Source: Chloroflexota bacterium
GTDB taxonomy: Bacteria > Chloroflexota > Chloroflexia > JAMCWQ01
NCBI GenBank assembly: GCA_023480825.1
Contig: JAMCWQ010000043.1
Span: 1 to 44,892 of the forward strand
Direction of reading: 5' to 3'
Length of the DNA stretch: 44,892 nt
This document shows positions 7,392-30,242 of this stretch, piece by piece. Numbering within the stretch: the stretch's first letter is position 1; each line of letters opens with the position of its first letter. The position numbers were made by a program, and so were the translations under genes. Below the pieces are notes generated by a model. That model saw only the letters and a program-made list of their open reading frames with translations. It did not search any database and was not told the origin of the DNA.

Positions 7392-7832
7392 CTAGCGGAA
7401 CAAATCCAGGGTTTTCACGGCCATATCTTTGGCGACATTCAGAGCGGTGATGTTGGCCTCATATGCCCGGCTCGCCGAGATCATGTCTGTCATTTCGGTC
7501 ACAACGTTAATGTCCGGGTAGGTGACGTAGCCGTCTGGGCCGGCGTCCGGGTGGGTGGGGTCGTACACCCTGCGTACGGCGTTTTGGTCTTCGACGATCG
7601 AGATCGCCCTCACGCCGGCCTGCTGGGACGGTCCCTGCAGAGAATTGGCAAGAATTCCCCGGGCGCCCGTGGAGGCGCGGCTGGAGAACACCACTTGTTC
7701 CCGGAGGTACGGGCCACCCCGCGCAGTGCGAGTGGTCTCCATATTGGCGAGGTTATTGGAAATGACATCCATCCTCAGCCGTTGAGCTGTCAGACCGGAG
7801 GCACTAATCTGTAGTGAGGAAAGATAGCCCAT
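7392..7832 (-). CDS. flgC: Flagellar basal-body rod protein FlgC
   Basis: LQISASGLTAQRLRMDVISNNLANMETTRTARGGPYLRE; C-terminal SASRAYEANITALNVAKDMAVKTLDLFR. Confidence 0.95.
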   Translation of the reverse strand: MGYLSSLQISASGLTAQRLRMDVISNNLANMETTRTARGGPYLREQVVFSSRASTGARGILANSLQGPSQQAGVRAISIVEDQNAVRRVYDPTHPDAGPDGYVTYPDINVVTEMTDMISASRAYEANITALNVAKDMAVKTLDLFR

Positions 7833-7938: not shown

Positions 7939-8625
7939 CTACACTTGCTTGGCGACCACTATCAACCTGTGGGTGTAGACGCCATCTGGCACGCAGGTGA
8001 TTAGTGTGAGGGTGCGGTCATTGGTTTGAGCCATCACGCTGGTCTCCGTTGGCAGAACGACCTTGGTTTCCACTACCTGATAGAGGAATTCGTCCTCTTC
8101 GGTAAATAGAATTATGGCATCGCCGACTTGCACCTCCGGGAGCCTCTTGAACACGGACCCGGCGCGAGTGGTGCTGATGTGCCCGGACATCACGATGTTA
8201 CCAGTCTGGCCTGGATTGGCCGTATCCATGTAGTGGCCCACCTCATAGGGGGCGGTCTCCCAAATGAGGATGCCTTCCTGGACCTTGGTGCCGAGCTCCA
8301 CCACCTTGGAATCCAGACTTATTTTGGGAATCACGATGCGAATAGCAGGGAGAGCGAAGTTCTGCATCTGCTCGAGCTTCTTCGTGGCGCTAATGAGCTC
8401 CTCTTCGGAGATAATGGGAGTCTCCGACTGTGATGGAGTAGGAAATGGAGTCGGTGTCAGCGTGGCGGTTGGGGTAATTGTGGCTTGAGATACAGGCATG
8501 GGCGTAGCCATAGCCTCACCAGCCCTCACGATGACCACCCGGGGTGAGCCGAGCATCTGGTAAGCGGCAAAGAGGATGACTGCCGTGAGCACTCCTAGCA
8601 GAGCAGTTATCAGGCGCCCTTTCAC
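7939..8625 (-). CDS. Sortase family transpeptidase (class D/E-like)
   Basis: N-terminal TM anchor, Pro/Thr linker, catalytic His in NIVMSGHISTT, catalytic Cys in TLTLITCVPDG, Arg in YTHRLIVVAK. Confidence 0.93.
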   Translation of the reverse strand: MKGRLITALLGVLTAVILFAAYQMLGSPRVVIVRAGEAMATPMPVSQATITPTATLTPTPFPTPSQSETPIISEEELISATKKLEQMQNFALPAIRIVIPKISLDSKVVELGTKVQEGILIWETAPYEVGHYMDTANPGQTGNIVMSGHISTTRAGSVFKRLPEVQVGDAIILFTEEDEFLYQVVETKVVLPTETSVMAQTNDRTLTLITCVPDGVYTHRLIVVAKQV

Positions 8626-8690
8626 CGGCCATTACTCCTCATAGTCCTCAGCGGGGGACTGCTTGTAGCATCACGCAAGGCCACGGGGGT

Positions 8691-9065
8691 TCAACCACCA
8701 ATGTTCAATGAGCCGGTGGATCGTCTTGGCGCCGGCCGGTAACCATTGAGGAGGCGCTGCCCGGTGCGAAGATCACTCAAGTCCTTCCGCACGGCCGCCA
8801 TACGGGCGAGTATGGCATGCTCGACCTGCTTGTCGGTTTCTAGTATCCGGCGGATGATTTCGGCGATCGCCGGGTCCCGGTGCAGGGTCTCCTGGAGCAA
8901 CCGGCGGCGCTGTGGCTCGGCTTTGGCCTCAATCTCCGCAAGCAATTGTTCCCTTTTCTGCATCATGTCCGCAAGTTCATCGATGTCGTCTCTCTCGATG
9001 GCTTGCTTCTGGGCAATGGCTAGGGTAAGCACCGCCTGATATAGAGCATGTGATTCGGAGGCCAT
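8691..9065 (-). CDS. FliT/FlgN-like flagellar chaperone
   Basis: Small helical protein directly downstream of fliS; QAVLTLAIAQKQAIERDDIDELADMMQKREQLLAEI. Confidence 0.6.
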   Translation of the reverse strand: MASESHALYQAVLTLAIAQKQAIERDDIDELADMMQKREQLLAEIEAKAEPQRRRLLQETLHRDPAIAEIIRRILETDKQVEHAILARMAAVRKDLSDLRTGQRLLNGYRPAPRRSTGSLNIGG

Positions 9066-9070
9066 AGCTT

Positions 9071-9505
9071 CTACCTCAATGCAAGCTGTAGTTCACCTAT
9101 CCGCAAATTGGTGGCATGGTTCTCGGCGGTGGAACGCTCCGTGACCCGCACTGCTTCCTCCCACGCCGGCAGGAGTTCCTTAAGAAGATCGGCAACCTCT
9201 TGGAATAAGGCCGAGTCCTTCTTCACGTTCGCCTGCACCAAACGCTCGAGCATGTACTCATAGAGCTTGTGCAGATTGGCCGACACCGAGCCGGCATCCA
9301 TGTTCAAAGTCGTCATTAGCTCCGTGATGATGTCCTGGGCCCGTATAGCGCTGGCGTGGGTCTCCTCCATGTTCCCCTCGTCGTTCTCCAGAACGGCCTT
9401 GTTTATGAAGCGCAGGGCGCCTTGGTACAGCATTACCACCAACCGTCCTTTGCTGGCGGTCTCAGCTTGAGTTCTCTGGTACTGCTGGTAAGGGTTGTTA
9501 GTCAT
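9071..9505 (-). CDS. fliS: Flagellar export chaperone FliS
   Basis: NPYQQYQRTQAETASKGRLVVMLYQGALRFINKA. Confidence 0.96.
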   Translation of the reverse strand: MTNNPYQQYQRTQAETASKGRLVVMLYQGALRFINKAVLENDEGNMEETHASAIRAQDIITELMTTLNMDAGSVSANLHKLYEYMLERLVQANVKKDSALFQEVADLLKELLPAWEEAVRVTERSTAENHATNLRIGELQLALR

Positions 9506-9513
9506 GCCCCCTC

Positions 9514-11925
9514 CTAACTACTGCTGGTACTGCTAGTACTGCTGGTACTATAGATGTTGCTCGCACTCAACCCTGCAAGCTGGGACGCCAGGGCATTGCT
9601 TTGAACCTGGAGTTGAGCAAGCGTCGCTTCCATGGTGGCGTACTTAGCTTTGAGGGTTTCTCTCTTAGCGTCCAGCCGGGTCTGCATATCGTTTATCTGA
9701 TCGCTAAGATCCTTGACCTGCTGCTCCGAAGAGGCTTGCTGGCTCGCAAATAACCCATCGGGGGCGGCCAGTTGCTTAAGGTAGTCGTTCAGTGTTATGG
9801 ACAAGCCCTTGGTCTGGAGCCCAACATTGATGGTTTGCTCGCCGGCTTCCAGGATAGGCTTCATAGTCAGTGTTACGCCGGGTATAAGCGTGCTGTTCGT
9901 GCCTCCGGCGGCAATGGTGCCCGTAATGGATTGAGAAGCAGCGCCATCGCTCCGGAAAAACTGAATTGTGATATTGTCTTTCACATCCGCGGTCGTGGTA
10001 ACCTTGTAGTAACCCGCTTCATGGTTGGCAGTGGGGCTGCCGGTGATACTCGCGATGCTGCCGGTGGTTCCGGAAAGGCTGGCGCTATTGGTAAATGCAT
10101 TGAACAGGCCGGCCACGGCCGAAGGGTTGTCGATTAGCGCATTCGCGAGTTTGGTTTCGTCGAGCTGCAGGGTGTAGTCTGAGCCAACTGCACTCCCCAC
10201 CTTCCCGGTGCTGATGCCGATATCGGCAAACGTGCGGTACTTTCCGCTGGCGCCGATGGCCGCTCCGGCAACCAAGGTTCGCAGGGTGGCGTCGATGAGC
10301 GTGACCGAAGGATCGCCAAGGAGTAACCCTGCCTCCTTAGTGTCAGAACTGTATTTAGTCTGGTCTTTGATGGTGCTGATCACGTCGTTGAACTTCGCCA
10401 CGAAGTCCTTTACCGCACTCACCGTTTTATCGGTGTCTTGGCCGATAGTAACCTCCACCGGAGTTGTGCTGGTGGATTTCAGTGTTAGAGTAACCCCGGG
10501 TATGATGCCGGTGACGGTGTTGCTGGCGCTGGATAGCTGCTGGCCATTGGCGACGGAGTCTACGCTATAAAGGGCGTTTTGCCCGATGGTCTGCTCGGCG
10601 TCGAGGATGCCGGTTGCTTGCAGGAAATTGCCGGTGGTGTCTTCCAGCGTAACAATCCTCTCGCCTGTCGTCGTCGATGTCAGCTTCATCCGGTCGGTCA
10701 AGGCGTCATAGCTGGCGATAACGCCGGCGGAAGAAGCGTTGATGCGGCCGATGATATTGTTGATCGTATCGGACTGGTTATAAGTAATAGAGACCCCGTT
10801 TATCTTGAATTCTCCATTGCCACTGCCATCCAGACCAGCTATAGGAGTAACCAGACGGGAATTGGTGAGCGTCTCACTCGTCTTCGTGCCGCCCATTCTG
10901 ACCAGGCTCGTTATGCTGTCCGTCCCGTTTGCGGTTTCTCCGGCGCTCAATCCGCTTCCGCTTCCGGCGTCGGCAATGTTGATCTTGTAACTGGCTCCGG
11001 ACGATCTCTGGGTTAGAGAGATTGTGCCGTCATCGTTCCCGACGGCTAGGACGGTGGAATTGGGCGTGGCGTTGATATCTGCCGCTATGGAAGCAGCATT
11101 CTGGGCGGCGGTGTTCCCGGCGTCGGTCGTCCTCGTCGTGGTGGTCACACCATTGATTGTGATCGCCGTGGAGGCGATTGTCCCCGCCGCTACAGCCGTT
11201 CCCGTTGTAGTGGCGGCGGAGTTCCCGATTACTTGAGCATCCAGTAGCTTGGCGGCGGATAAGAAATTGCTGGTGTCCGACGCCGCGCCGATTTGCAGCT
11301 TCACTCCGGGATCGGATACCAACTTAAGGAGATTGGGGCGCCCGTCGGCATCATTGGCGATGGAGGCGGTGACGCCGATTCCGGAGTTGTTGATCTTCGC
11401 AACAATAGTGTTTGAGCCCGGGGCATCTACTCCGTCGCTCAGGACTGTGTTGGAGTCGATCGTTATCGTCGCCAGGCTGGTCCCCTTGATTGTAAACGTG
11501 CCTGTTGTGGGGGTCAGGCTGAACCCGGCGGCGGACAGCACCGCCGAGGGGTCTATCGCCCGTCCTATGGCCGAGCCACTCGCCATCCGCGTCGCGGTAG
11601 CCAGACGGCTTACGGTAACACTAAATGAACCGTTGGCCGCGGTGGCATCGGCAGTAGAGGTCAGAATGGGTAAGGAAGTGGCGGGCGTATCGGTGACCGC
11701 TGACTTGGAGTTTACGTATGAACTAAGCGTCAGGTTTTGGACAGCCAACTGGAGGGTGGATACCTTGCTCTGCAAATCGGTGAAGGCTGCAGCCTTTTGC
11801 TGGATGGTGGTCTGCTGCTGCTGCAATGCAGTCAGCGGCTGGCTTTCCAGCGCCATAAGTTGGTCGATCATCGACGTCGTGTTTATGCCCGATATTAGCC
11901 CGTCGACGGAGAATGAGCTTGCCAT
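9514..11925 (-). CDS. fliD: Flagellar filament cap protein FliD (long, 803 aa)
   Basis: MASSFSVDGLISGINTTSMIDQLMALESQPLTALQQQQ; C-terminal coiled coil; Ser/Thr tail TSSTSSTSSS. Confidence 0.95.
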   Translation of the reverse strand: MASSFSVDGLISGINTTSMIDQLMALESQPLTALQQQQTTIQQKAAAFTDLQSKVSTLQLAVQNLTLSSYVNSKSAVTDTPATSLPILTSTADATAANGSFSVTVSRLATATRMASGSAIGRAIDPSAVLSAAGFSLTPTTGTFTIKGTSLATITIDSNTVLSDGVDAPGSNTIVAKINNSGIGVTASIANDADGRPNLLKLVSDPGVKLQIGAASDTSNFLSAAKLLDAQVIGNSAATTTGTAVAAGTIASTAITINGVTTTTRTTDAGNTAAQNAASIAADINATPNSTVLAVGNDDGTISLTQRSSGASYKINIADAGSGSGLSAGETANGTDSITSLVRMGGTKTSETLTNSRLVTPIAGLDGSGNGEFKINGVSITYNQSDTINNIIGRINASSAGVIASYDALTDRMKLTSTTTGERIVTLEDTTGNFLQATGILDAEQTIGQNALYSVDSVANGQQLSSASNTVTGIIPGVTLTLKSTSTTPVEVTIGQDTDKTVSAVKDFVAKFNDVISTIKDQTKYSSDTKEAGLLLGDPSVTLIDATLRTLVAGAAIGASGKYRTFADIGISTGKVGSAVGSDYTLQLDETKLANALIDNPSAVAGLFNAFTNSASLSGTTGSIASITGSPTANHEAGYYKVTTTADVKDNITIQFFRSDGAASQSITGTIAAGGTNSTLIPGVTLTMKPILEAGEQTINVGLQTKGLSITLNDYLKQLAAPDGLFASQQASSEQQVKDLSDQINDMQTRLDAKRETLKAKYATMEATLAQLQVQSNALASQLAGLSASNIYSTSSTSSTSSS

Positions 11926-11956
11926 TTCCTACCGTGCCTCCCACCTGCCAGCGCCC

Positions 11957-12307
11957 TTAGCGCCGGTGCTCGCTTACTGCCTGCATGTACGCCCTCAGGT
12001 CCGCTGCCAACTTGGCCAGTTCTTCCGAGGGTATCTCCTGGATCACCTCACCATTATCGGCGTTGACAACCTGCGCCCTGATCCGGTTTGTTTCGTTGTC
12101 GATGATGAAATGCGTGTAAGTTCGTTTGAGGATGCCCTGTGCCAACTGCGTATCGATCTTCAAGGCGGGATCCGGCGTTGTGGCTTGAGCCGCCTTCTCC
12201 CGAGGTGATTCCTCCCGCCGGGCCTTCGGCCAGACCGGCAATTCTACCTGTGGGGCGCTCGCCTTTTGGCCGATAGGTTCTACTTTTTCAATCCCTTGAT
12301 AAGCCAT
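11957..12307 (-). CDS. flaG: FlaG family protein
   Basis: THFIIDNETNRIRAQVVNADNGEVIQEIPSEELAKLAADLRAYM. Confidence 0.92.
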   Translation of the reverse strand: MAYQGIEKVEPIGQKASAPQVELPVWPKARREESPREKAAQATTPDPALKIDTQLAQGILKRTYTHFIIDNETNRIRAQVVNADNGEVIQEIPSEELAKLAADLRAYMQAVSEHRR

Positions 12308-12425
12308 TTCCCTTAGCTCCTTCCTTCTCCAACCAACCCAGAGGCGGCGGATCTGGGCAGGGAAACTTCTCTGATAGTTGTCACGCCTCTAACCATCACT
12401 AAATGCGCATTGGTGATGACTGGTG

Positions 12426-12456
12426 CCGGTGCGGCCGGCGCTGCCGGCCGCACCGG
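12426..12456 (-). terminator. Strong hairpin downstream of fliC (14-bp perfect stem, 3-nt loop)
   Basis: CCGGTGCGGCCGGC-GCT-GCCGGCCGCACCGG about 40 nt past the fliC stop; no clear U-tract. Confidence 0.6.
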
Positions 12457-12497
12457 ATTGCTTCGCCGCGGGACGGTCTCCGGCGGCAGGTCGTCTA

Positions 12498-13676
12498 CTA
12501 CTGTAGCAACTTGAGAACGGACTGAGGGGCCTGATTGGCCTGAGCCAAGACAGCGGTTGCTGCCTGCTGCAGTATCTGGCTCCTCGTGAACGCTACTGTT
12601 TCGGCTGCCATATCTGCATCCCTGATCCGGCTCTCGGATGCCGACAGGTTCTCTCCTGCTACGCCCAAGTTGGCAATCGTGTGCTCGAGCCTGTTCTGAT
12701 ACGCTCCCAACTTGCCCCGCTGGTCGGAAACATTGCTGATGGCGCCGTCGATGACGTCCACCAGGTCCCGGGCCTTAGCGGCGGTGGAGACTGCAGTGTT
12801 GTCGGTTACCTTATCCGAGATGTAGCTGCCGGCGCCGCTGCCGATAGCGGTTGAGCGCATATCGGAGAGGCTGACGGTGATGCGGTCATCGACGTTGCTG
12901 CTGGTGCCCACCTGGAGCGATGCCGAGCCGCTGCCGGCAGCTGTAGTGACATCGCCAAGAGTAGCGAGGTCGGCGGCGATCTGAGCGCCGGTGCCGCCAG
13001 CGCCATTGATAGTGATCTTAACACCCAGCGAGCCGAAGTCTAAGACTTGCTCACCGGAGGCGCCCATCGCGGCTGCGGTTACTGTCACCGAGTTGGTACC
13101 GTCACTCAAGGTAGCGTCAGCGCCGGATGCCGTGAAGGTGAAGGTAGTGCCTGCAACGGCGCCGGAGACATCAACCTTAGAGACCACAGTGGCGCTGGTA
13201 GCAAGGGCTGCGCCGACCGCAACAGAGCTTCCACCAGCGAGGGAAGTGGTAAGTGAGCCGTTGAGGAGCGACTTACCATTGAACTTGGTGGTATTGCCGA
13301 TGCGGTCGATTTCCGAACGCAGGGCGTAAAGCTCATCGCCGATTGCAGTGCGGTCGCTATCGGACAGGGTCTCGTTACCGGCTTGGACAGCCAACTCCCG
13401 CATTCTTTGGAGCAGGCTGTGGACCTCGTTCAGGGAACCTTCAGCGGTTTGGATCATAGAGATACCGTCTTGGGAGTTGCGGGAAGCTTGGTTGAGTCCA
13501 TTGATCTGGGCTCTCAACTTCTCGCTGATGCTCAAGCCGGCGGCGTCATCGCCTGCGCGGTTGATCCTCAGGCCGCTGGAGAGTCTTTCAACCTGTTTTC
13601 CAAAGGCTGTAGCGTTGATGTTGAGGTTACGCTGGGCATTTAGCGCTTCGATGTTGGTATTGATTCGGACTGACAT
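12498..13676 (-). CDS. fliC: Flagellin FliC/Hag
   Basis: MSVRINTNIEALNAQRNLNINATAFGKQVERLSSGLRINRAGDDAAGLSISEKLRAQINGL; C-terminal QAATAVLAQANQAPQSVLKLLQ. Start moved from 13712 to ATG 13676 because GAGGAGG (13684-13690) is a 7-nt-spaced SD. Confidence 0.97.
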   Translation of the reverse strand: MSVRINTNIEALNAQRNLNINATAFGKQVERLSSGLRINRAGDDAAGLSISEKLRAQINGLNQASRNSQDGISMIQTAEGSLNEVHSLLQRMRELAVQAGNETLSDSDRTAIGDELYALRSEIDRIGNTTKFNGKSLLNGSLTTSLAGGSSVAVGAALATSATVVSKVDVSGAVAGTTFTFTASGADATLSDGTNSVTVTAAAMGASGEQVLDFGSLGVKITINGAGGTGAQIAADLATLGDVTTAAGSGSASLQVGTSSNVDDRITVSLSDMRSTAIGSGAGSYISDKVTDNTAVSTAAKARDLVDVIDGAISNVSDQRGKLGAYQNRLEHTIANLGVAGENLSASESRIRDADMAAETVAFTRSQILQQAATAVLAQANQAPQSVLKLLQ

Positions 13677-13706
13677 TTTCTGGCCTCCTCTGCCATGTTT
13701 CTTGCC

Positions 13707-13729
13707 GAGCACGATTTCCTTTCGTGCTC
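13707..13729 (-). promoter_or_regulatory. Predicted CsrA-binding hairpin in the flagellin leader
   Basis: RNA GAGCACGA-AAGGAAA-UCGUGCUC: perfect 8-bp stem with GGA in the 7-nt loop; a second GGA lies in the SD about 31 nt downstream. Confidence 0.6.
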
Positions 13730-13851
13730 AGTCCCTGATAGACTTTGGTTAAAGCTTCATTGGTAACACTGGCCTGCCATTTGACCGGTCTCCCCACCAC
13801 CGTCGCCGGCAACCCAGACGATGGCGGTACCAAATTCACCTCCCAATCTGA

Positions 13852-13878
13852 TTATCGGCAGAGGCATCATGAACTTGA
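13852..13878 (-). promoter_or_regulatory. Sigma-28 (FliA)-type promoter of fliC
   Basis: Minus strand TCAAGTTC-N11-GCCGATAA versus consensus TAAAGTTT-N11-GCCGATAA: perfect -10, 6/8 at -35, exact spacing. Confidence 0.85.
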
Positions 13879-14079
13879 GGGCTTTCCACTTGCCGTTCCA
13901 TAGCTGTTTGCGAGCCATGTTTGAGCGTGCGCCCCTCCGCGCCGGGACGCCGGCTTTTCGATTGGCCGGCCTGCATGGCTTGGCATACTGGACACTGGAT
14001 TTTCAGTGAGACTACCCCGGCAAGTAAGGACCCCGGTTCTCCAGTAGCCAGGCCGGAGGTCCCCGGCATGAGAGGATAG

Positions 14080-14105
14080 GAGAGGCGCACCGGAGTGCGC
14101 CTCTC
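14080..14105 (-). terminator. Perfect 11-bp hairpin between csrA and fliC, candidate terminator
   Basis: GAGAGGCGCAC-TCCG-GTGCGCCTCTC on the minus strand followed by a pyrimidine-rich CTATCCTCTCAT. Confidence 0.5.
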
Positions 14106-14278
14106 AAGAATTATGCAGTGGAATTGCTTAGGGAGCCAGACGCTCCGTAACATGACAGTACCAGCTCTGGCTGATCAAAATGAACACTCCTGTGGTGGCC
14201 TCGCCCAGCGGAGCGACTGATTGGGAAATTGAGAACCTCCAAAGTGCCCGAGGTGGGTCATGACTTCCCGTAGCGGCA

Positions 14279-14563
14279 TCACCTGGCCTGAGGGTCTAGG
14301 TCTCTATCTGTTGCTGATGAGGTGCTAGGGGCCAGCTTCACCTTGGCCAGGCTTTCCAGGCCCTGCTTGGCAGACTGCCGGCCGCTGGCGGCCTCGCGGT
14401 TCTCCTGCTTGATCTGATCGCAGAGCTCATGCCGGAGGATAGTGACGGATTTGGGCGCGGATATCCCGATCTTGATGCGATCTCCGTCGACATCGAGGAT
14501 GGTGAGCACTACGTCCTTGTCTATGAGAAGGCTTTCGCCCGGGCGCCGCGTTAGAACTAACAT
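14279..14563 (-). CDS. csrA: Translational regulator CsrA with C-terminal extension
   Basis: MLVLTRRPGESLLIDKDVVLTILDVDGDRIKIGISAPKSVTILRHEL. Confidence 0.96.
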   Translation of the reverse strand: MLVLTRRPGESLLIDKDVVLTILDVDGDRIKIGISAPKSVTILRHELCDQIKQENREAASGRQSAKQGLESLAKVKLAPSTSSATDRDLDPQAR

Positions 14564-14568
14564 GTCAC

Positions 14569-15015
14569 CTACTCCCCCTCTGCTTCGAGGCTCACAGGAT
14601 AGTGGAGGGAAAAGCGCTCATCCTGTATGACCAGTTGTTTTGCCAGCTTTGTCTTAACGTTTACCACAATCGGCCCGGCGAGATTGGCCGTAATGCGAAG
14701 GGGCTCTTGCCTTATGGTAAGTGTACAAAGAACGAGGGCATCTTTGGCGTCGCTGAGGCCAATCGCCTCCTGCTCTCGCGAGGACATTTGGATGTCATAG
14801 CCCTCGATCAGACAGTCAGGAGAGGTGACGAGGAAACAGATGTCCTCGTCGTCAAGACAGACCATTCTCAGTATTGGCTGGCCGTTGTCACTCTCGATCA
14901 CGAACCGCCGCCAATTCTCGAAGCCGATCATACCTTCGGGAAACGTGATTATCTCGCCCGCGTAGCCCTGCAGTTCTTTGTCGCCCATTCCTTTAGCTGA
15001 CTTCGTACTAGTCAA
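14569..15015 (-). CDS. fliW: Flagellar assembly factor FliW
   Basis: ITFPEGMIGFENWRRFVI; LCTLTIRQEPLRITANLAGPIVVNVKTKLAKQLVIQDERFSLHYPV. Confidence 0.95.
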   Translation of the reverse strand: MTSTKSAKGMGDKELQGYAGEIITFPEGMIGFENWRRFVIESDNGQPILRMVCLDDEDICFLVTSPDCLIEGYDIQMSSREQEAIGLSDAKDALVLCTLTIRQEPLRITANLAGPIVVNVKTKLAKQLVIQDERFSLHYPVSLEAEGE

Positions 15016-15055
15016 TTTTGTCCCTCACTCGATAGACGAATTGGCACCAACCATC

Positions 15056-15937
15056 TTATCTGAGAAAGTCGATTAGGCTTGGCTGGAGCGTCTTGGCGGC
15101 CGCGCCCAAAGCTGCCTGGTACAGTGTCTGCTCGGTAGCCAGCTTAGTGATCACGTCAGCCATGTCGGTATCCTCTGCCTTGGAAAGTAGGTCCGCCAGA
15201 TAGCCCTGCACCTCGCTAATCTGGGTGTCACTGCCCTCCAGCCGGTTCACCCTGGCACCCACTTCTGCTCGAGCCGATAAGACGGTATCGATGGCCGCGT
15301 CTATGCTGTTCAGAGTATCGGAGATTCCCTTCGTATCGTCGGCTTCGAGGCTTTGATATAGGCGGATGAGCACATCGAAGACCGGCGTCAGAGCCTGTTC
15401 GCCATCCGTGTTTACCTGGATAGTGGTGGCGGAGCCTATTTCCCGTGGGATGGCTCCATGGTCGCCGTTGTAGGTCACTGAGGAGCCATCGCCGGCAAGG
15501 GTGAAGGGAGCGGTGTCCGTTTGGAAGCCGGCAAAAATGTAGCGGCCCTCATACGTCGAGTTGCCTACTTGCACAGCGTTCTCCAGCAACTGGCGGACTT
15601 CCAAAGCGATCGCGTGCCTCTGCTCGCTCCCGATAGTGTCGTTGGCGCCGTTGGTAGCCAATTCGGTCGCCCTTATCAGAAGGTCGTTGACGGCGCCCAG
15701 GTTCACATCGGTGGTATTAAGCCATGATTTGGCGGAATCGATGCTGCGAGAGTACTGGTCGTTCTGCTCCATGGTGGAGCGAAGCGTAAGGGCGCGCACC
15801 AAGGCGACCGGGTCATCGGATAGGTTGTTGAGCCGCTTTCCCGAGGACATCTGCGCCTGGTACTTCTCCATACGCTGCACGTTTTGGGCGAGGTTATTAA
15901 GCACCGTGTTGCTCATCATCTGACTTGTGACGCGCAT
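15056..15937 (-). CDS. flgL: Hook-filament junction protein FlgL
   Basis: MRVTSQMMSNTVLNNLAQNVQRMEKYQAQMSSGKRLNNLSDDPVALVRALTLRS. Confidence 0.95.
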   Translation of the reverse strand: MRVTSQMMSNTVLNNLAQNVQRMEKYQAQMSSGKRLNNLSDDPVALVRALTLRSTMEQNDQYSRSIDSAKSWLNTTDVNLGAVNDLLIRATELATNGANDTIGSEQRHAIALEVRQLLENAVQVGNSTYEGRYIFAGFQTDTAPFTLAGDGSSVTYNGDHGAIPREIGSATTIQVNTDGEQALTPVFDVLIRLYQSLEADDTKGISDTLNSIDAAIDTVLSARAEVGARVNRLEGSDTQISEVQGYLADLLSKAEDTDMADVITKLATEQTLYQAALGAAAKTLQPSLIDFLR

Positions 15938-15949
15938 GGAAATCCTCCG

Positions 15950-17356
15950 TTACCGCCCTACAAGGCCCATATTATTGATGATGGTATTGAGCGTTTCATC
16001 GAATGTCGTCACGATGCGGGCTGCCGCCTGATACGCTCTCTGGAATTTGATCAGGTTGGTAGCCTCTTCGTCAGTCGAGACACCGGAGTAGGAGTCTCTC
16101 TGTCTCTGCAGATACTGCACCAACACGTCTTGATTGTCGGCAAGATTGGAGGCGCCGTTTATCTCGACGCCCAATTCCGAGACCATGGATTTGTAGAACT
16201 CGCCAATAGTCGTATTGGATGTGCCGATGGTGACGGCGGTATCCTGCAATCCGGCGATAGCGAGAGCGTTGCGGCCGTCTCCGGGTGAGTCGATTGCGCT
16301 GGCCGCAGCAATACTGGCAAGGTTGCCCTGGATATCGGCGCTGATAGCTATGTCATCGGCTCCAGTGCCGGTGAAGAAGTCGACCCCGGTGGTGCCGTTG
16401 AGCCCATAGCCTGCCCGGTGAATCGTATTCACCTGGGTGATCAACGCGGAAGTGAGGTCTTGAAGCTGGTTGATCTCTTTGGTGAGCACGTCGTCCCGGG
16501 CCTCGTAATAGCCCTTGATCTCTCCGCTAATCACGTTGATGGGTGACCCGCTATCGGGCCAAACCAGAATATCATCGCCATTGGCATTGAGCGCCGTGCC
16601 GACTGTATTGGTGCCGGCGCCATCGACCAAAGCGTGCCCGTCGAGAAACACGGAAACGGAGCCGTTGGACATCTCGTTGTAGGAGACCCGGACCACCGAC
16701 GATAGATCGTCCAGCAGGACGTCTCGCTTATCCCGAAGGTCATTTGCCTGGTCTCCAACGGCCTGGACCGCCGAAATCTGAGCGTTGAGGGCGGCGATCT
16801 GCGAGGCCTTGCTGTTGATGTCATCGACTTTGACCTGCACCTGCTTGTTCATATCGGCCCTGATCTGGGTCAGTTCCTGATAATCGCGATGCAGGGTGGA
16901 GATCAAATTGCCGGCCTGCTGGCGCAGGGTTGCCCGGGCGGCCGTGTTCTGGGGATCGTTACTAAGCTCTCGCCATCCGGTGAAGAATTGGCTCAGTATT
17001 GTGCTCAGACCGACGTCTGAGGGCTCATTGATGATGGTCTGGACTTGATTGAGGCTGTCTCGCCGGACCGAATAGCGGCCCAATTCGGTTTCTTCAGACC
17101 TGATCTGTTGGTCGACAAATATGTTGCGGGTGCGGCTAATCAGGGAGACTTCCACCCCGGTGCCCACCTGCCCGGCCGATGCGCTGCGGTTGAATGCGGC
17201 AACGGTGTACGGCGGTGTAGTCACGAAGCTGACAACCTGGCGCGAAAATCCGGGGGTATTGGCATTGGCCATGTTGTGGTTGGTGACGTCCAACGCTTGC
17301 TGCTGCGCCATGAGGGCTCGCATCGCCGTATTGAGGCCGAAGAAGGTTGAGGTCAA
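15950..17356 (-). CDS. flgK: Hook-filament junction protein FlgK
   Basis: FFGLNTAMRALMAQQQALDVTNHNMANANTPGFSRQVV; C-terminal EATNLIKFQRAYQAAARIVTTFDETLNTIINNM. Confidence 0.96.
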   Translation of the reverse strand: MTSTFFGLNTAMRALMAQQQALDVTNHNMANANTPGFSRQVVSFVTTPPYTVAAFNRSASAGQVGTGVEVSLISRTRNIFVDQQIRSEETELGRYSVRRDSLNQVQTIINEPSDVGLSTILSQFFTGWRELSNDPQNTAARATLRQQAGNLISTLHRDYQELTQIRADMNKQVQVKVDDINSKASQIAALNAQISAVQAVGDQANDLRDKRDVLLDDLSSVVRVSYNEMSNGSVSVFLDGHALVDGAGTNTVGTALNANGDDILVWPDSGSPINVISGEIKGYYEARDDVLTKEINQLQDLTSALITQVNTIHRAGYGLNGTTGVDFFTGTGADDIAISADIQGNLASIAAASAIDSPGDGRNALAIAGLQDTAVTIGTSNTTIGEFYKSMVSELGVEINGASNLADNQDVLVQYLQRQRDSYSGVSTDEEATNLIKFQRAYQAAARIVTTFDETLNTIINNMGLVGR

Positions 17357-17378
17357 CTTGCTACACCCTTTCCAAATC

Positions 17379-17924
17379 TCAGACGCAATGCTCGATCAAT
17401 CGTTTAGAGTTCCTGCTCGCGGTAACGGTCGAGCCCGAGGCACTGTAAGCGAAATCTCTCGACTGCAGCCCGACGACAAAGGACAGCGACTGCTGAACAT
17501 TGGATAGCAGCCGCACCAGCATGGCGGCGTTCTGCTCATTGGACTCCGAGACGGCGGCTACAAGTCTGTTCAGTCTCTCATGAGCACGCGCCAGGTCTGC
17601 TCGTTTCTCATCAGGCGACAAATCGATTAGTGCGGACATGGTCAAAGCACCGGTCGCGAAGCCGTTTTGCCCGGCCCAATCATCCAACAACTGTTTGCGT
17701 TGCTGCTCGATGGCATCAACTCTATCGAGGACATCCTTCTTTGATGATATGGCCTTTTCCAGCTTGGCAAGGTCTCGTGTCCTCGTAGCCGTTCTCTCTT
17801 GCCCAGCCAGGGTGAGCATTCGCTCCAATAGATTTCCCTCTTCTTGGAGAAGGGAAAGGAGTGGCCGCAGCGACTGCCAGCGGGCCGATTCTACAGACTT
17901 GTCTTGCCGATCAAGCTTTCTCAT
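17379..17924 (-). CDS. flgN: FlgN-family export chaperone
   Basis: Helical protein between flgM and flgK: LLSLLQEEGNLLERMLTLAGQERTATRTRDLAKLEKAISSKKDVLDRVDAIEQQRKQLL. Confidence 0.85.
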   Translation of the reverse strand: MRKLDRQDKSVESARWQSLRPLLSLLQEEGNLLERMLTLAGQERTATRTRDLAKLEKAISSKKDVLDRVDAIEQQRKQLLDDWAGQNGFATGALTMSALIDLSPDEKRADLARAHERLNRLVAAVSESNEQNAAMLVRLLSNVQQSLSFVVGLQSRDFAYSASGSTVTASRNSKRLIEHCV

Positions 17925-18249
17925 CTATTCTTCCACCGAGGAGCTTGCCGGCAAGTTTCTCCGCGGACACTTCGTAAGTGCCTGCTTGGATCTGGTTCTT
18001 GATTGTCTGCACTTTCTCCTCGCGCACGTCAGTGGCTTTGGAGACAATATCTCGCAGCTTCTGCAACTCCTTGCTTTCCGGAGAAAGCTGAACCGCGTCG
18101 ACCTGTCGACGTACCTGAGCCGATGGCTGGACCCCATCGTCACCCGGAACGCGCCGGACTTGCTCGGTTTGGACGGTCTTGTCTTCTACCTTGTTGATCT
18201 TTTGCTGATACGCTTGGATAGCCTGAGAACCTATCTTCTGAATTACCAT
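17911..18249 (-). CDS. flgM: Anti-sigma-28 factor FlgM
   Basis: DAVQLSPESKELQKLRDIVSKATDVREEKVQTIKNQIQAGTYEVSAEKLAGKLL. Confidence 0.92.
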   Translation of the reverse strand: MVIQKIGSQAIQAYQQKINKVEDKTVQTEQVRRVPGDDGVQPSAQVRRQVDAVQLSPESKELQKLRDIVSKATDVREEKVQTIKNQIQAGTYEVSAEKLAGKLLGGRIDEKA

Positions 18250-18294
18250 CTAATGCCCTCTCTTGCTAAGACCACTGGCCTTCCCCTACGGGTA

Positions 18295-18321
18295 TTATCG
18301 GCACTATTTATATCACACTTA
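18295..18321 (-). promoter_or_regulatory. Sigma-28 (FliA)-type promoter of flgM-flgN-flgK-flgL-fliW-csrA
   Basis: Minus strand TAAGTGTG-N11-GCCGATAA: perfect -10 octamer, exact spacing, partial -35. Confidence 0.75.
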
Positions 18322-18352
18322 AGGCCGGCAGCCATGCACCTTTTCACGCACA

Positions 18353-19123
18353 TCAAGTCCTTAGCTGATTTGCCAGCCCTATCATGTCGCTTACGGTCTG
18401 CAGGGATCGTGCCGAAAGCTGGTACGCCCGCTGGGCATTGATCAACTTTGTCATTTCTTCGGCGTAGTTCACGTTGGAGTTCTCCAATTGCCCCTGAACG
18501 AGCAGGCCGGTATTGGCGGCGCCAGTTACAGCCTGGCCGGATGCGGCGGTCGGGGTGAGCAAGTTCTCGCCGTCAAGCTGCAGCCCGGAGGGATTGGGAA
18601 AGGTGACGACGGGAATTTGCCCGATTTGCTCCGGCTGCAAGGCGCCGGCGCGCATAATTGTTACGGTCCCGTCCTGCGCGATTCCCAGCGTCTCGGTATC
18701 CGCCGGAACAGTGATTCCGGGCACAAGGTAACCGGAGTGAGTGGATAGCCTTCCCTGATCATCCAGCACGAAGGAGCCGTCTCTGGTGTAGACGTGCGTG
18801 CCATCCGGTTTCTGTATGTCGAAATATCCCTCCCCCACTATCGCAACATCGAGGGGATTATCTGTTTGCTGGAGGTCCCCTTGGGACAAAATCATTTGTG
18901 CAGCGTTGAGGGCCGTTCCCGCGCCTCCCGATGCTGGAGTGTCTCCATTGATGTCCACGGCCGGCGCCTCGGGCTGGAGAAGCTGGTACACCAGGTCCTC
19001 GAAATCAGCTCGCCCCTTCTTGAACCCTGGGGTTGTGGCGTTCGCCATGTTGTTTCCTATGACGTCCATGTTCCATTGCTGGGCGATGAGTCCTGATGCT
19101 GCGTTGCGCAGTATGCTAAGCAT
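18353..19123 (-). CDS. flgG: Flagellar rod/hook-type protein FlgG
   Basis: MLSILRNAASGLIAQQWNMDVIGNNMANATTPGFKKGRADFEDLVYQ; NPLDVAIVGEGYFDIQ. Confidence 0.9.
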   Translation of the reverse strand: MLSILRNAASGLIAQQWNMDVIGNNMANATTPGFKKGRADFEDLVYQLLQPEAPAVDINGDTPASGGAGTALNAAQMILSQGDLQQTDNPLDVAIVGEGYFDIQKPDGTHVYTRDGSFVLDDQGRLSTHSGYLVPGITVPADTETLGIAQDGTVTIMRAGALQPEQIGQIPVVTFPNPSGLQLDGENLLTPTAASGQAVTGAANTGLLVQGQLENSNVNYAEEMTKLINAQRAYQLSARSLQTVSDMIGLANQLRT

Positions 19124-19144
19124 TATGGTTGCTCCCCACTCCCG

Positions 19145-19924
19145 CTAACTAAACCTGGCGATCTCATTAACCGCTTTGTCGAGGGCAGCGTCTTGGAATT
19201 GGATCATCTTCTGGCTGGCTTCGTAAGCCCGGGCAACGGCCATCATATCCACCATGGCTTTGGTCACGTCGACGTTCGACCTCTCGAGGAAGCCCTGGTG
19301 CACGGTCGTTTGGGTGGCCGCCGCCGGCGCCAGTCCCGCCGTGGCGGGCTGTAGTAGATTGCCGCCAGTCTTTACCATCTGCTCTCCAGCCGGGAACTCT
19401 ACAATGGCCAGCCGGTCAACTTGTTGTCCGCCGGCCAGCACCGTGCCATCACTGGCAATCTGTACCTCTCCTTCGGGAATCTGGATGGGGCCGTTTTGGC
19501 CCAACACCAACTCGCCGTTGGCTGTGGTCAGGCGGCCGTCCGGGTTTCGCACGAAGCTACCATCCCGGGTATAGAGCACTCCTTGATTGGTCTGAACGCT
19601 GAAGAACCCGCTGCCCGACAGGGCCATGTCGAGAGGGTTTCCCGTTTCCTCGAGTTGCCCCTGAGTCATGTCGAGCGTGGACTCGCCAACGGCGACTCCC
19701 GTTCCAAGAGTCCCCACCGGAGTGGCGGTGGACATGCCGGCCGGGATGAAAGGCGAGGAAAGATCGTTGGTGCGATTGAGATACAGGCCGGGAGATGCCT
19801 CCTCGTTGGCTATGTCTTGTTTGTACCCGGTGGTCTGCACGTTTGCTAGGTTGTTATTGATGACCATTTGTTTCGAGAAAAGCGTGAGCATGCTCGACGC
19901 CGAAGCATATATTCCTCTAATCAT
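19145..19924 (-). CDS. Flagellar rod protein FlgF/FlgG paralog
   Basis: MIRGIYASASSMLTLFSKQMVINNNLANVQTTGYKQD; NPLDMALSGSGFFSVQT. Confidence 0.9.
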   Translation of the reverse strand: MIRGIYASASSMLTLFSKQMVINNNLANVQTTGYKQDIANEEASPGLYLNRTNDLSSPFIPAGMSTATPVGTLGTGVAVGESTLDMTQGQLEETGNPLDMALSGSGFFSVQTNQGVLYTRDGSFVRNPDGRLTTANGELVLGQNGPIQIPEGEVQIASDGTVLAGGQQVDRLAIVEFPAGEQMVKTGGNLLQPATAGLAPAAATQTTVHQGFLERSNVDVTKAMVDMMAVARAYEASQKMIQFQDAALDKAVNEIARFS

Positions 19925-19950
19925 AACCTATCTCCTCTTCCCTTTTCCCT

Positions 19951-20061
19951 GTGTACGCGGGGATTAAAGGGGGACTCTGGCGGGGAGCCACTGCTGACCC
20001 CGACCATCCCCACCCTAACCCTCCCCGCATGCAGGGAGGGGACAAGATTGGCCCCGTACAC
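19951..20061. repeat. REP/MITE-like palindromic intergenic element
   Basis: Imperfect terminal inverted repeats GTGTACGCGGGG...CCCCGTACAC enclosing CCCCACCCTAACCCTCCCCGCATGCAGGGAGGGG. Confidence 0.5.
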
Positions 20062-20122
20062 GGGGAGGGAGCTGACGGCTTCAGATTGCATGCTGTTGCC
20101 GCAGCCAGTGCTTTCTGGATTG

Positions 20123-20737
20123 TCACTTGTTCTTCCCCGCGCTGGCCCGGCCCTTTGACCACCTGCCAACGACCACGCCGGCGCAAAGGGTGAGCAGCAG
20201 CCCACCGCCAACAGCCAGCATCTCTCCAAGGCCGTATAGCGGAGTTGCCTCCCCGGTCTGCGGCAACTGAGCAGGATCCTGAGTGGTATTATGGGCTGGA
20301 TAGAAGCCGGCTATAGACTTGCGGGCGTCCGCCGCTGGGTCAGGATCGTTCTTAGGCTCGACGCTGATAATGAAGAAGTTGTATGAGAGATCGGGTATCT
20401 TGTCGAACTCTGCGTTGTAGTCGATCTTGCCATTGGCATCGGCGTTGAACTTGCCAACGCTGAAGGTCTGGTTTGTGTTGGTGTTTACCAGCCACCCCTC
20501 ATACATGTCCTCCGGGAGTTGGGGGAGGCCGGTGGCCGTGATGTGAGCGTAGCCATCCCTGACGCCAATATCCGCAACGCCAGCGGCCCCGGTTGGCCCC
20601 CAGTTGGAGTAGCCGGTTAGGTAGGTGAGTATTAACTTCACCGGGACGCCATTAGCGGAGGCCGGCACGGTGTTGAAGGCCATAATTGCCACCAGGAACG
20701 CTATTGACAAAAGCCGTAGAATACTGCTCCCACGCAT
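20123..20737 (-). CDS. Secreted LPXTG (LPQTG) cell-wall-anchored protein, RskA-ectodomain-like fold suspected
   Basis: Signal peptide MRGSSILRLLSIAFLVAIMAFNTVPASA; C-terminal LPQTGEATPLYGLGEMLAVGGGLLLTLCAGVVVGRWSKGRASAGKNK (LPXTG-TM-basic tail). SD AAGGAG upstream of ATG 20737. Confidence 0.88.
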   Translation of the reverse strand: MRGSSILRLLSIAFLVAIMAFNTVPASANGVPVKLILTYLTGYSNWGPTGAAGVADIGVRDGYAHITATGLPQLPEDMYEGWLVNTNTNQTFSVGKFNADANGKIDYNAEFDKIPDLSYNFFIISVEPKNDPDPAADARKSIAGFYPAHNTTQDPAQLPQTGEATPLYGLGEMLAVGGGLLLTLCAGVVVGRWSKGRASAGKNK

Positions 20738-20750
20738 TACGAAAGCTCCT

Positions 20751-21251
20751 TCATCTCTGAATTGATTGGCCGGAATGTCTGTAGAACTGGAGGAGAAGAT
20801 CGATCTCCCCACGACTCATGCCGACTTCTCTGGCGATTTCTGTTGTGTTTCTGCCTTGGCCGGCCAGAGTGATAACATTGGCTTTGCCACCGGCAAGCGC
20901 CGCGTTCTTCTCGCCGCGTGGTGGCTCCGCAATGTTCGACTGGGTAATTACCTTTGTCTTGGGCACGCTATAGTAAGCGCTGCTGAGAGCCTCTATCTGG
21001 ATCGCTGCGCTTTCGCTGAGTTCTCGCAGAGCGGATACCTGCTGGTTCAGGGTTTGCGCGGCCGCCTGGCTGGCTGCCTGTATCTCGGACACGAGCTGCT
21101 CTACTTCCTCGCGGAGTCCATCAGCCAAGTCGCCTTGAGAGCTCAGGAGGAGCCGCTGCTCCATATCTTTCAGCCGTTTGCGCATCTGCGAGTACAGAAC
21201 TGCGCACGAGAGCATCGCCATCACGGACATCAATGCCGCTAATTCTGCCAA
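20751..21251 (-). CDS. SwrB-like/DUF6115-like membrane protein: N-terminal TM, coiled coil, C-terminal HTH-like motif
   Basis: MAELAALMSVMAMLSCAVLYSQMRKR TM; C-terminal NVITLAGQGRNTTEIAREVGMSRGEIDLLLQFYR; directly downstream of fliA. Confidence 0.65.
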   Translation of the reverse strand: MAELAALMSVMAMLSCAVLYSQMRKRLKDMEQRLLLSSQGDLADGLREEVEQLVSEIQAASQAAAQTLNQQVSALRELSESAAIQIEALSSAYYSVPKTKVITQSNIAEPPRGEKNAALAGGKANVITLAGQGRNTTEIAREVGMSRGEIDLLLQFYRHSGQSIQR

Positions 21252-21306: not shown

Positions 21307-22077
21307 TCATTTCCGCTCCGTCCTGTCCTGCAATGCTGACCGCAGGCGGAGAACCGAGCGAGCATGTAGCTGGCAAACACGTGATTCCGATACGTCCAGA
21401 ACCTGGCTAATCTCGCGCAGTGTCAATTCCTCGAAGTAGTATAGGTAGATGACTAGCCGCTCCCGCTGCGGCAAGCTGTTTATCGCGTCGGTGAGAGCGC
21501 TCCGAAGCTCGGCGTTCTCTAGTATCTGCGCAGGATTTGGGCTGTTGGCGTCTTGCAGCGCCTCCAGAAGGGGAACTTGTTCGTCCCCGTCGATGTAGTC
21601 CACGGCGGCGTCGAGGGAAAGAGTGACACAACTGGCATCAACTAAGGTCTTGTTGTAACTAGCCAGGGACATCCCAACATGGTTGGCCACCTCCAGATCG
21701 CTTGCCGACCGCCCGTATTGGTGCTGCAGTTCGGAGACCGCCCGTTCGATGGTGCGGGATTTCTGCCTGACGGACCGTGGCACAAGATCGAGCGCTCGCA
21801 GAGCGTCGATTATGGCGCCCTTGATGAGCGAAATGGCGAATGTCTCGAACTTGACACCCCGGCCCGGGTCGAAACGGTTGGCTGCATTTAGGAGACCGAT
21901 AGTCCCATAGCTTATGATATCCTCGGAATCCAGTATCGCCGGCAGAGAAATAGCCAGCCTCCCGACCACGTACTTCACCAATGGGGCATAACGCACCACC
22001 AGATGCTCGAGCAATTCTGGGTTCTTTGTGGCCTGGTACTCGGTCCACACATCTTCCATCGTCCCGGCGACTACCAT
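21307..22077 (-). CDS. fliA: RNA polymerase sigma factor for flagellar operons, FliA/SigD
   Basis: VVRYAPLVKYVVGRLAISLPAILDSEDIISYGTIGLLNAANRFDPGRGVKFETFAISLIKGAIIDALRALDLVPRSVRQK; region 4 LTLREISQVLDVSESRVCQLH. Confidence 0.96.
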   Translation of the reverse strand: MVVAGTMEDVWTEYQATKNPELLEHLVVRYAPLVKYVVGRLAISLPAILDSEDIISYGTIGLLNAANRFDPGRGVKFETFAISLIKGAIIDALRALDLVPRSVRQKSRTIERAVSELQHQYGRSASDLEVANHVGMSLASYNKTLVDASCVTLSLDAAVDYIDGDEQVPLLEALQDANSPNPAQILENAELRSALTDAINSLPQRERLVIYLYYFEELTLREISQVLDVSESRVCQLHARSVLRLRSALQDRTERK

Positions 22078-29447: not shown

Positions 29448-30242
29448 CTATCCGAAACTGACCAACAGGGATTTCAGCACCAGGTGCCAGCCGTCTACGA
29501 GGACGAAAAGCAGCACCTTGAAGGGCAGAGAGATCATCGCCGGCGGCAGCATCATCATGCCCATGGACATGAGAGTGCTGGAGACCACCATGTCTATGAT
29601 CAGGAACGGAATGAAGATGGCGAAGCCCATTTCGAATGCCGTTCTCAGCTCGCTGGTGGCGAAGGCCGGGATCAACACGTAGGTAGGGACATCGGCCTGA
29701 GTGCGGGGCAGGCTTATCTTTGCCATCTTGACAAACAGAGCTATGTCCTTTTCACTCGTCTGCTTGAACATGAAATCGCGGAGCGGTTTTTCGCCGAGGG
29801 TCATGGCCGTTTGCTGGGAAATCTTGCCGCTGAGGTAGGGCTGTAGAGCCTGATTGTTCACCTGCTGCCAGGCCGGGGCCATGACAAATATGGTGAGGAA
29901 AAGAGACAATCCGAGCAGCAATTGGTTCGGAGGCATCTGAGGAACGCCGATGGCGCTGCGGGCGAATGAAAGGACGATTATGGTGCGGGTGAACGATGTC
30001 ATCATCATGAGTGCAGCGGGGGCGAGCGACAGCACCGTCATCAGCATGAGAATGGTTAGGCCCGAGGAGGCGGCCTGAGTGCCAGGTGCGCCGGTGCCAT
30101 TGATGGTGATCTTGGAGCCGCCTGCATCGAACTCACCCGAGCACGAGGCAAGGAGCAGCGTTAGGGCCGCCAGAGACAGCACTGGAATCCATTTATGGTT
30201 GCGAACCTTCTTGAAGCTGCGAGCCACTGGGGTAAGCATCAC
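29448..30242 (-). CDS. fliP: Flagellar export protein FliP with lipobox-like signal sequence
   Basis: SFTRTIIVLSFARSAIGVPQMPPNQLLLGLSLFLT; N-terminal KKVRNHKWIPVLSLAALTLLLASC. Confidence 0.96.
   Translation of the reverse strand: MMLTPVARSFKKVRNHKWIPVLSLAALTLLLASCSGEFDAGGSKITINGTGAPGTQAASSGLTILMLMTVLSLAPAALMMMTSFTRTIIVLSFARSAIGVPQMPPNQLLLGLSLFLTIFVMAPAWQQVNNQALQPYLSGKISQQTAMTLGEKPLRDFMFKQTSEKDIALFVKMAKISLPRTQADVPTYVLIPAFATSELRTAFEMGFAIFIPFLIIDMVVSSTLMSMGMMMLPPAMISLPFKVLLFVLVDGWHLVLKSLLVSFG

Follow-up and report, generated by a model that had tools for sequence, protein, structure and literature searches.

Sortases dedicated to a single structure are well known: in the pilus sortase C, sporulation sortase D and aerial-hypha sortase E systems, a sortase and an LPxTG substrate share one locus or regulon and serve one structure. 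In diderm bacteria, the P ring, built from FlgI with the assistance of FlgA, is a wall-fixed part around the flagellar rod that is encoded with the flagellum, while Bacillus is believed to rely on its thick wall itself as the bushing (PMC11673145). Among the Chloroflexota, a study of flagellar synteny reported FlgH and FlgI missing from every Dehalococcoidia genome that it compared except one (PMC10284905), and Thermomicrobium roseum has no P and L ring genes, such that its flagellar attachment "remains ambiguous" (PMC2615216). The main texts of both papers contain no mention of the word sortase, and in the open-access papers that we found on sortases with the flagellum or the Chloroflexi a flagellar sortase is undescribed, an earlier description elsewhere being possible. 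Here we describe a sortase gene and a gene for an LPxTG protein within a flagellar locus. The best explanation as a whole, to which we assign a probability of about 0.6, is that the two make up a sortase–substrate system serving the flagellum of monoderm Chloroflexota. It would resemble the known pairs in its make-up and differ from them in the structure served and in the absence of the conserved polymerization lysine of pilins.

The window analysed here is an entire contig of 44,892 nucleotides from a Chloroflexota metagenome-assembled genome that is 51% complete. It carries a large flagellar locus on the minus strand, the strand on which all the genes named below are encoded. The gene for sigma-28, fliA (21307–22077), identified by sequence and by synteny with T. 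roseum, is followed by a SwrB-like gene (DUF6115/DUF2802; 20751–21251; PF19610, E=6.7e-7) and, 13 bases further on, by the LPxTG gene (20123–20737). After another 198 bases comes a flgF/flgG-type rod gene (19145–19924, hereafter flgF), then a flgG-type rod gene (18353–19123), with flgM just 3′ of the two. The sortase gene (7939–8625) lies downstream of fliS (9071–9505), assigned like the rod genes by sequence and synteny, and fliT (8691–9065; PF05400, E=1.9e-9), and upstream of flgC (7392–7832; PF06429, E=8e-13; PF00460, E=2e-9). The first-pass annotation had placed a sortase with intact His, Cys and Arg motifs between fliT and flgC and a secreted protein with an LPQTG–transmembrane–basic tail between the SwrB-like gene and flgF, both co-directional with the flagellar genes. 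Gene order and domain content bear out each of these points, and a search for FlgI (PF02119) found none in 15 flagellated genomes, with E. coli, Caulobacter and Thermotoga positive as controls. Elsewhere in the locus, positions 686–1795 encode a fusion of peptidase M23 with a lytic transglycosylase, which relatives also keep and which resembles the published description of T. roseum trd_A0646 (PMC2615216). At 29448–30242, FliP is extended at its N terminus by about 65 residues, which contain a lipobox-like LLASCSG.

The candidate wall-anchored flagellar protein, 204 residues long, starts with an ATG at 20737 behind a good ribosome-binding site, AAGGAG. A signal peptide (about residues 1–28; 20654–20737), with a helix predicted at residues 4–21, precedes an ectodomain of about 115 residues (31–145; 20303–20647), which was modelled confidently as a β-sandwich, putatively of the RskA_C type (pLDDT mostly above 90). 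The LPQTG sorting motif (residues 158–162; 20252–20266) is followed by a transmembrane helix, modelled at residues 170–201, and a basic tail, KGRASAGKNK (20126–20230 together), so that motif, hydrophobic stretch, basic tail and signal peptide, the marks of an LPXTG protein, are all present. Orthologues occupy the equivalent site in 13 class genomes, in T. roseum and in about 20 others of the phylum. Eight columns are invariant in an alignment of 28 orthologues, and three of these are L158, P159 and T161 of the motif; G162 is kept in 27. A scan for sorting tails was positive for the window copy and for most orthologues, that of genome G272 having no clear transmembrane tail. With the Pfam sorting-signal profile PF00746, a short profile that scores weakly even on clear motifs, the window protein reached 11.4 bits, below the cut-off of 20.

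PF10099, the C-terminal domain of the anti-sigma-K factor RskA, matches the ectodomain in 17 of the 28 orthologues, with a best E-value of 3.4e-10, and the window copy itself misses E=1. The nearest solved folds are Cu,Zn-superoxide-dismutase-like sandwiches, with weak scores (best E=0.005). A reading as superoxide dismutase or another enzyme was rejected, since the 28 orthologues conserve no histidine or cysteine and no metal ligands. A sortase-built pilus was likewise rejected, as at no position is lysine found in at least 60% of the orthologues. A profile search for a match of the protein to FlgI found none.

The similarity to RskA_C raises the possibility of a wall-anchored sensor or checkpoint, in which the domain would read the status of wall or rod and feed back on flagellar gene expression. 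The domain is known from anti-sigma factors, full anti-sigma-like proteins that carry it occur in the phylum, and the gene neighbourhood fits, with fliA upstream of the LPxTG gene and flgM close downstream. However, the LPxTG protein has a signal peptide and sorting signal in place of the anti-sigma domain of RskA, and its only cytoplasmic part is a short tail that a sortase could remove. We consider a sensor unlikely, though it fares better than any other alternative to a sortase–substrate system.

The sortase of 228 residues, with a GTG start behind a GAGGAG box, has an N-terminal transmembrane anchor. By contrast, in the class group 14 of 15 flagellar sortases have a lipobox-like cysteine and are apparent lipoproteins. 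Its match to PF04203 (E=2.3e-29, 102 bits) lies above the curated cut-off of 26.6 bits, that to TIGR01076 reaches 72 bits against a cut-off of 39, and the predicted fold retrieves sortases A, C, D and E with Foldseek (E=5e-11). The catalytic residues H149 (8179–8181), C211 (7993–7995) and R220 (7966–7968) are invariant in 15 orthologues. The protein is thus a member of the sortase superfamily, with LPxTG transpeptidase activity predicted from its sequence. Of the curated sortase classes, none was reached: NF033747 (class E) gave 76.7 of the 160 bits needed and NF033746 (class D) 69.8 of 165.

To place the pair among relatives, we used FlhA as a flagellar marker in a sample of 158 genomes of the class. 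Matches to the LPxTG protein were obtained in 17, and 14 of these are strong, all located between fliA or the SwrB-like gene and flgF and all with an LP[QKEN]TG motif and tail. This syntenic protein occurs in 14 of 15 FlhA-positive genomes and 0 of 143 FlhA-negative ones (Fisher p=4e-19, a value that ignores kinship); in the one FlhA-positive genome without it, G115, the contig is broken there and the FlhA match is at the edge of a contig. Sortases are common, being present in 151 of the 158 genomes, and one adjoins fliS in all 15 FlhA-positive genomes, with flgC on its other side in most. FlhA-negative members of the same family, for instance G109 and G110 (98% complete), encode five to six sortases, whose matches to the flagellar one are weaker, and no LPxTG protein; the pair is not, then, equally present in non-flagellated relatives, as the first-pass annotation had anticipated for a flagellar system.

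Does the flagellar-locus sortase act on the LPxTG protein? A single ancestral flagellar sortase for all lineages of the phylum was rejected (AU p=2e-6), and a single clade of the window, Thermomicrobium and allied flagellar sortases was not (AU p=0.06). With the flagellar sortases spread over more than one clade, the sequences point to repeated recruitment or replacement of the enzyme in separate lineages, the substrate being retained. An alternative is that a general sortase anchors the LPxTG protein and that the flagellar-locus enzyme has other targets or acts as an assembly factor. Besides the scatter of flagellar sortases over several clades, this would fit the flagellated genome G169, in which a sortase lies in a flagellar operon and no LPxTG protein was detected. 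It would also fit the presence of three other sortases in the incomplete window genome, one of which (contig C70, 5676–7044) adjoins another LPQTG protein, of 188 residues, as a separate sortase–substrate pair. The motif alone therefore cannot tell which sortase acts, and the earlier call to count the other sortases and LPXTG proteins of the genome has left the match of enzyme to substrate less certain. Against a general sortase, the LPxTG protein is almost always accompanied, in the same genome, by a flagellar-locus sortase, and the flagellar sortases of Sphaerobacter and Thermomicrobium form a well-supported clade confined to that group. We regard a general sortase as improbable, slightly more so than the sensor, and anchoring of the LPxTG protein to the wall by the flagellar sortase as probable on these comparisons.

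Across the phylum, a search of 400 Chloroflexota genomes with the class alignment of the LPxTG protein gave 31 strong homologues, and 43 genomes were FlhA-positive. The protein is present in 27 of the 43 FlhA-positive and 4 of the 357 FlhA-negative genomes, counts for which Fisher values ignore kinship; in three of those four FlhA-negative carriers the gene shares a contig with fliA and flgF. A phylogeny-corrected comparison of co-occurrence yielded one supported pair and, with too few pairs, was underpowered. Thirty of the 31 strong homologues, from 12 family groups, are placed in a flagellar locus, and the position between fliA or the SwrB-like gene and flgF is constant throughout. The sole non-flagellar homologue (G244, 9486–10604) reads LPSTA, having lost the glycine of the motif, as if the motif had decayed or changed after unlinking from flagella.

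The protein is apparently absent in 10 of the 22 flagellated family groups, including some deep lineages. A divergent, overlooked copy was rejected as the explanation, because the SwrB-like gene or fliA abuts flgF where contigs span the site. The protein is therefore not universal, and flagella in such walls can manage without it. The expectation that flagellated relatives keep the protein accordingly holds within the class and apparently fails for these family groups. Beyond the class, many genomes have the flagellar sortase gene by fliS, whereas family f52 has it adjacent to FlbD–motA and family f53 at the end of a flagellar cluster. Three flagellated genomes (G182, G200 and G323) have no detected sortase and also no LPxTG protein. 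Sortases near flgE-like matches in G311, G283 and G237 were left out of the flagellar count because the matches were overlapping or distant; in two of these genomes, other LPNTG proteins lie close to the sortases. A possible sigma/anti-sigma/sortase locus lies on contig C195 of G359, where a lipobox sortase is encoded together with a FliA-like sigma factor and an anti-sigma-like protein whose domain resembles RskA_C.

Among named genomes, the same alignment found matches in the Thermomicrobiaceae and Sphaerobacter only; these include Sphaerobacter sp., Thermomicrobium sp. CFH 73360, Thermalbibacter longus and T. roseum DSM 5159. The flagellar system on the T. roseum megaplasmid (Wu et al. 2009, PMC2615216) holds both genes, like the window. 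There, fliA is followed by a small predicted membrane protein, by the LPxTG protein WP_012642757.1, annotated as a hypothetical protein, and by flgF and flgG, and the LPxTG gene overlaps flgF by 4 bases. In a second operon, flaG, fliD, fliS and fliT precede WP_012642972.1, annotated as a sortase, which follows fliT at a distance of 3 bases. The LPxTG and sortase genes lie 174 kb apart, each in a flagellar operon, so each tracks its own flagellar neighbours and not its partner gene. Linkage in homologous loci, on which the first-pass annotation had made its proposal depend, is thus retained in the form of linkage to flagellar genes. Given this co-occurrence and synteny, we are confident that the sortase and the LPxTG protein are dedicated to the flagellum; the original proposal of a dedicated pair stands to that extent, with reservations that arise from the deep flagellated lineages without the protein and from the second sortase–LPQTG pair of the window genome.

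LPxTG proteins are often adhesins, and the protein could be one, or a link to an S-layer, merely co-expressed with the flagellum and playing no part in the motor. Tepidiforma, for example, which is motile, has an S-layer outside its wall (PMC10284905). Such a role seems rather improbable, a little below a general sortase, for a small, single-domain protein whose gene is fixed between sigma-28 and distal-rod genes in 12 families, is absent where flagella are absent and, in T. roseum, runs into flgF. That the two genes are chance neighbours carried within a flagellar cluster, as the abundance of sortases might allow, is contradicted by the same positions over many families, by their staying with flagellar genes even in genomes where the flagellar cluster is divided among several loci, and by an estimated chance proximity of 5% per genome, a rough figure, and we dismiss it as very improbable.

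How might a sortase–substrate system serve the flagellum? In the mechanism that we propose, the LPxTG protein would be exported as a Sec-type precursor with its RskA_C-fold ectodomain and sorting signal, cut by the flagellar sortase between threonine and glycine at sites of basal-body assembly and joined by the same enzyme to peptidoglycan. Ectodomains fixed to the wall around the rod could then form a collar or bushing in bacteria without a FlgI ring. With the gene beside those for the distal rod and no P ring, the most parsimonious proposal is a collar or bushing linked to the wall, and we put such a structural role, as opposed to another wall-bound one, at a little under even odds. Its proposed place and role match those of FlgI; the fold differs, and a covalent link made by a sortase would take the place of FlgA-assisted ring assembly. 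The ectodomain, FlgF and FlgG all carry net negative charge, so a charge attraction of the kind seen with FlgI is not evident. More tentatively, a covalently wall-linked collar of RskA_C-fold domains, attached by a flagellum-specific sortase that was repeatedly recruited from different lineages, may replace the P ring bushing in monoderm Chloroflexota.

The pair described here bears on how bacteria that have no P and L rings retain the flagellar rod in their wall. Found in flagellar loci of 12 Chloroflexota families and present in cultured thermophiles, it is a concrete and testable candidate. If the proposal is true, the flagellum would join the structures known to use sortases.
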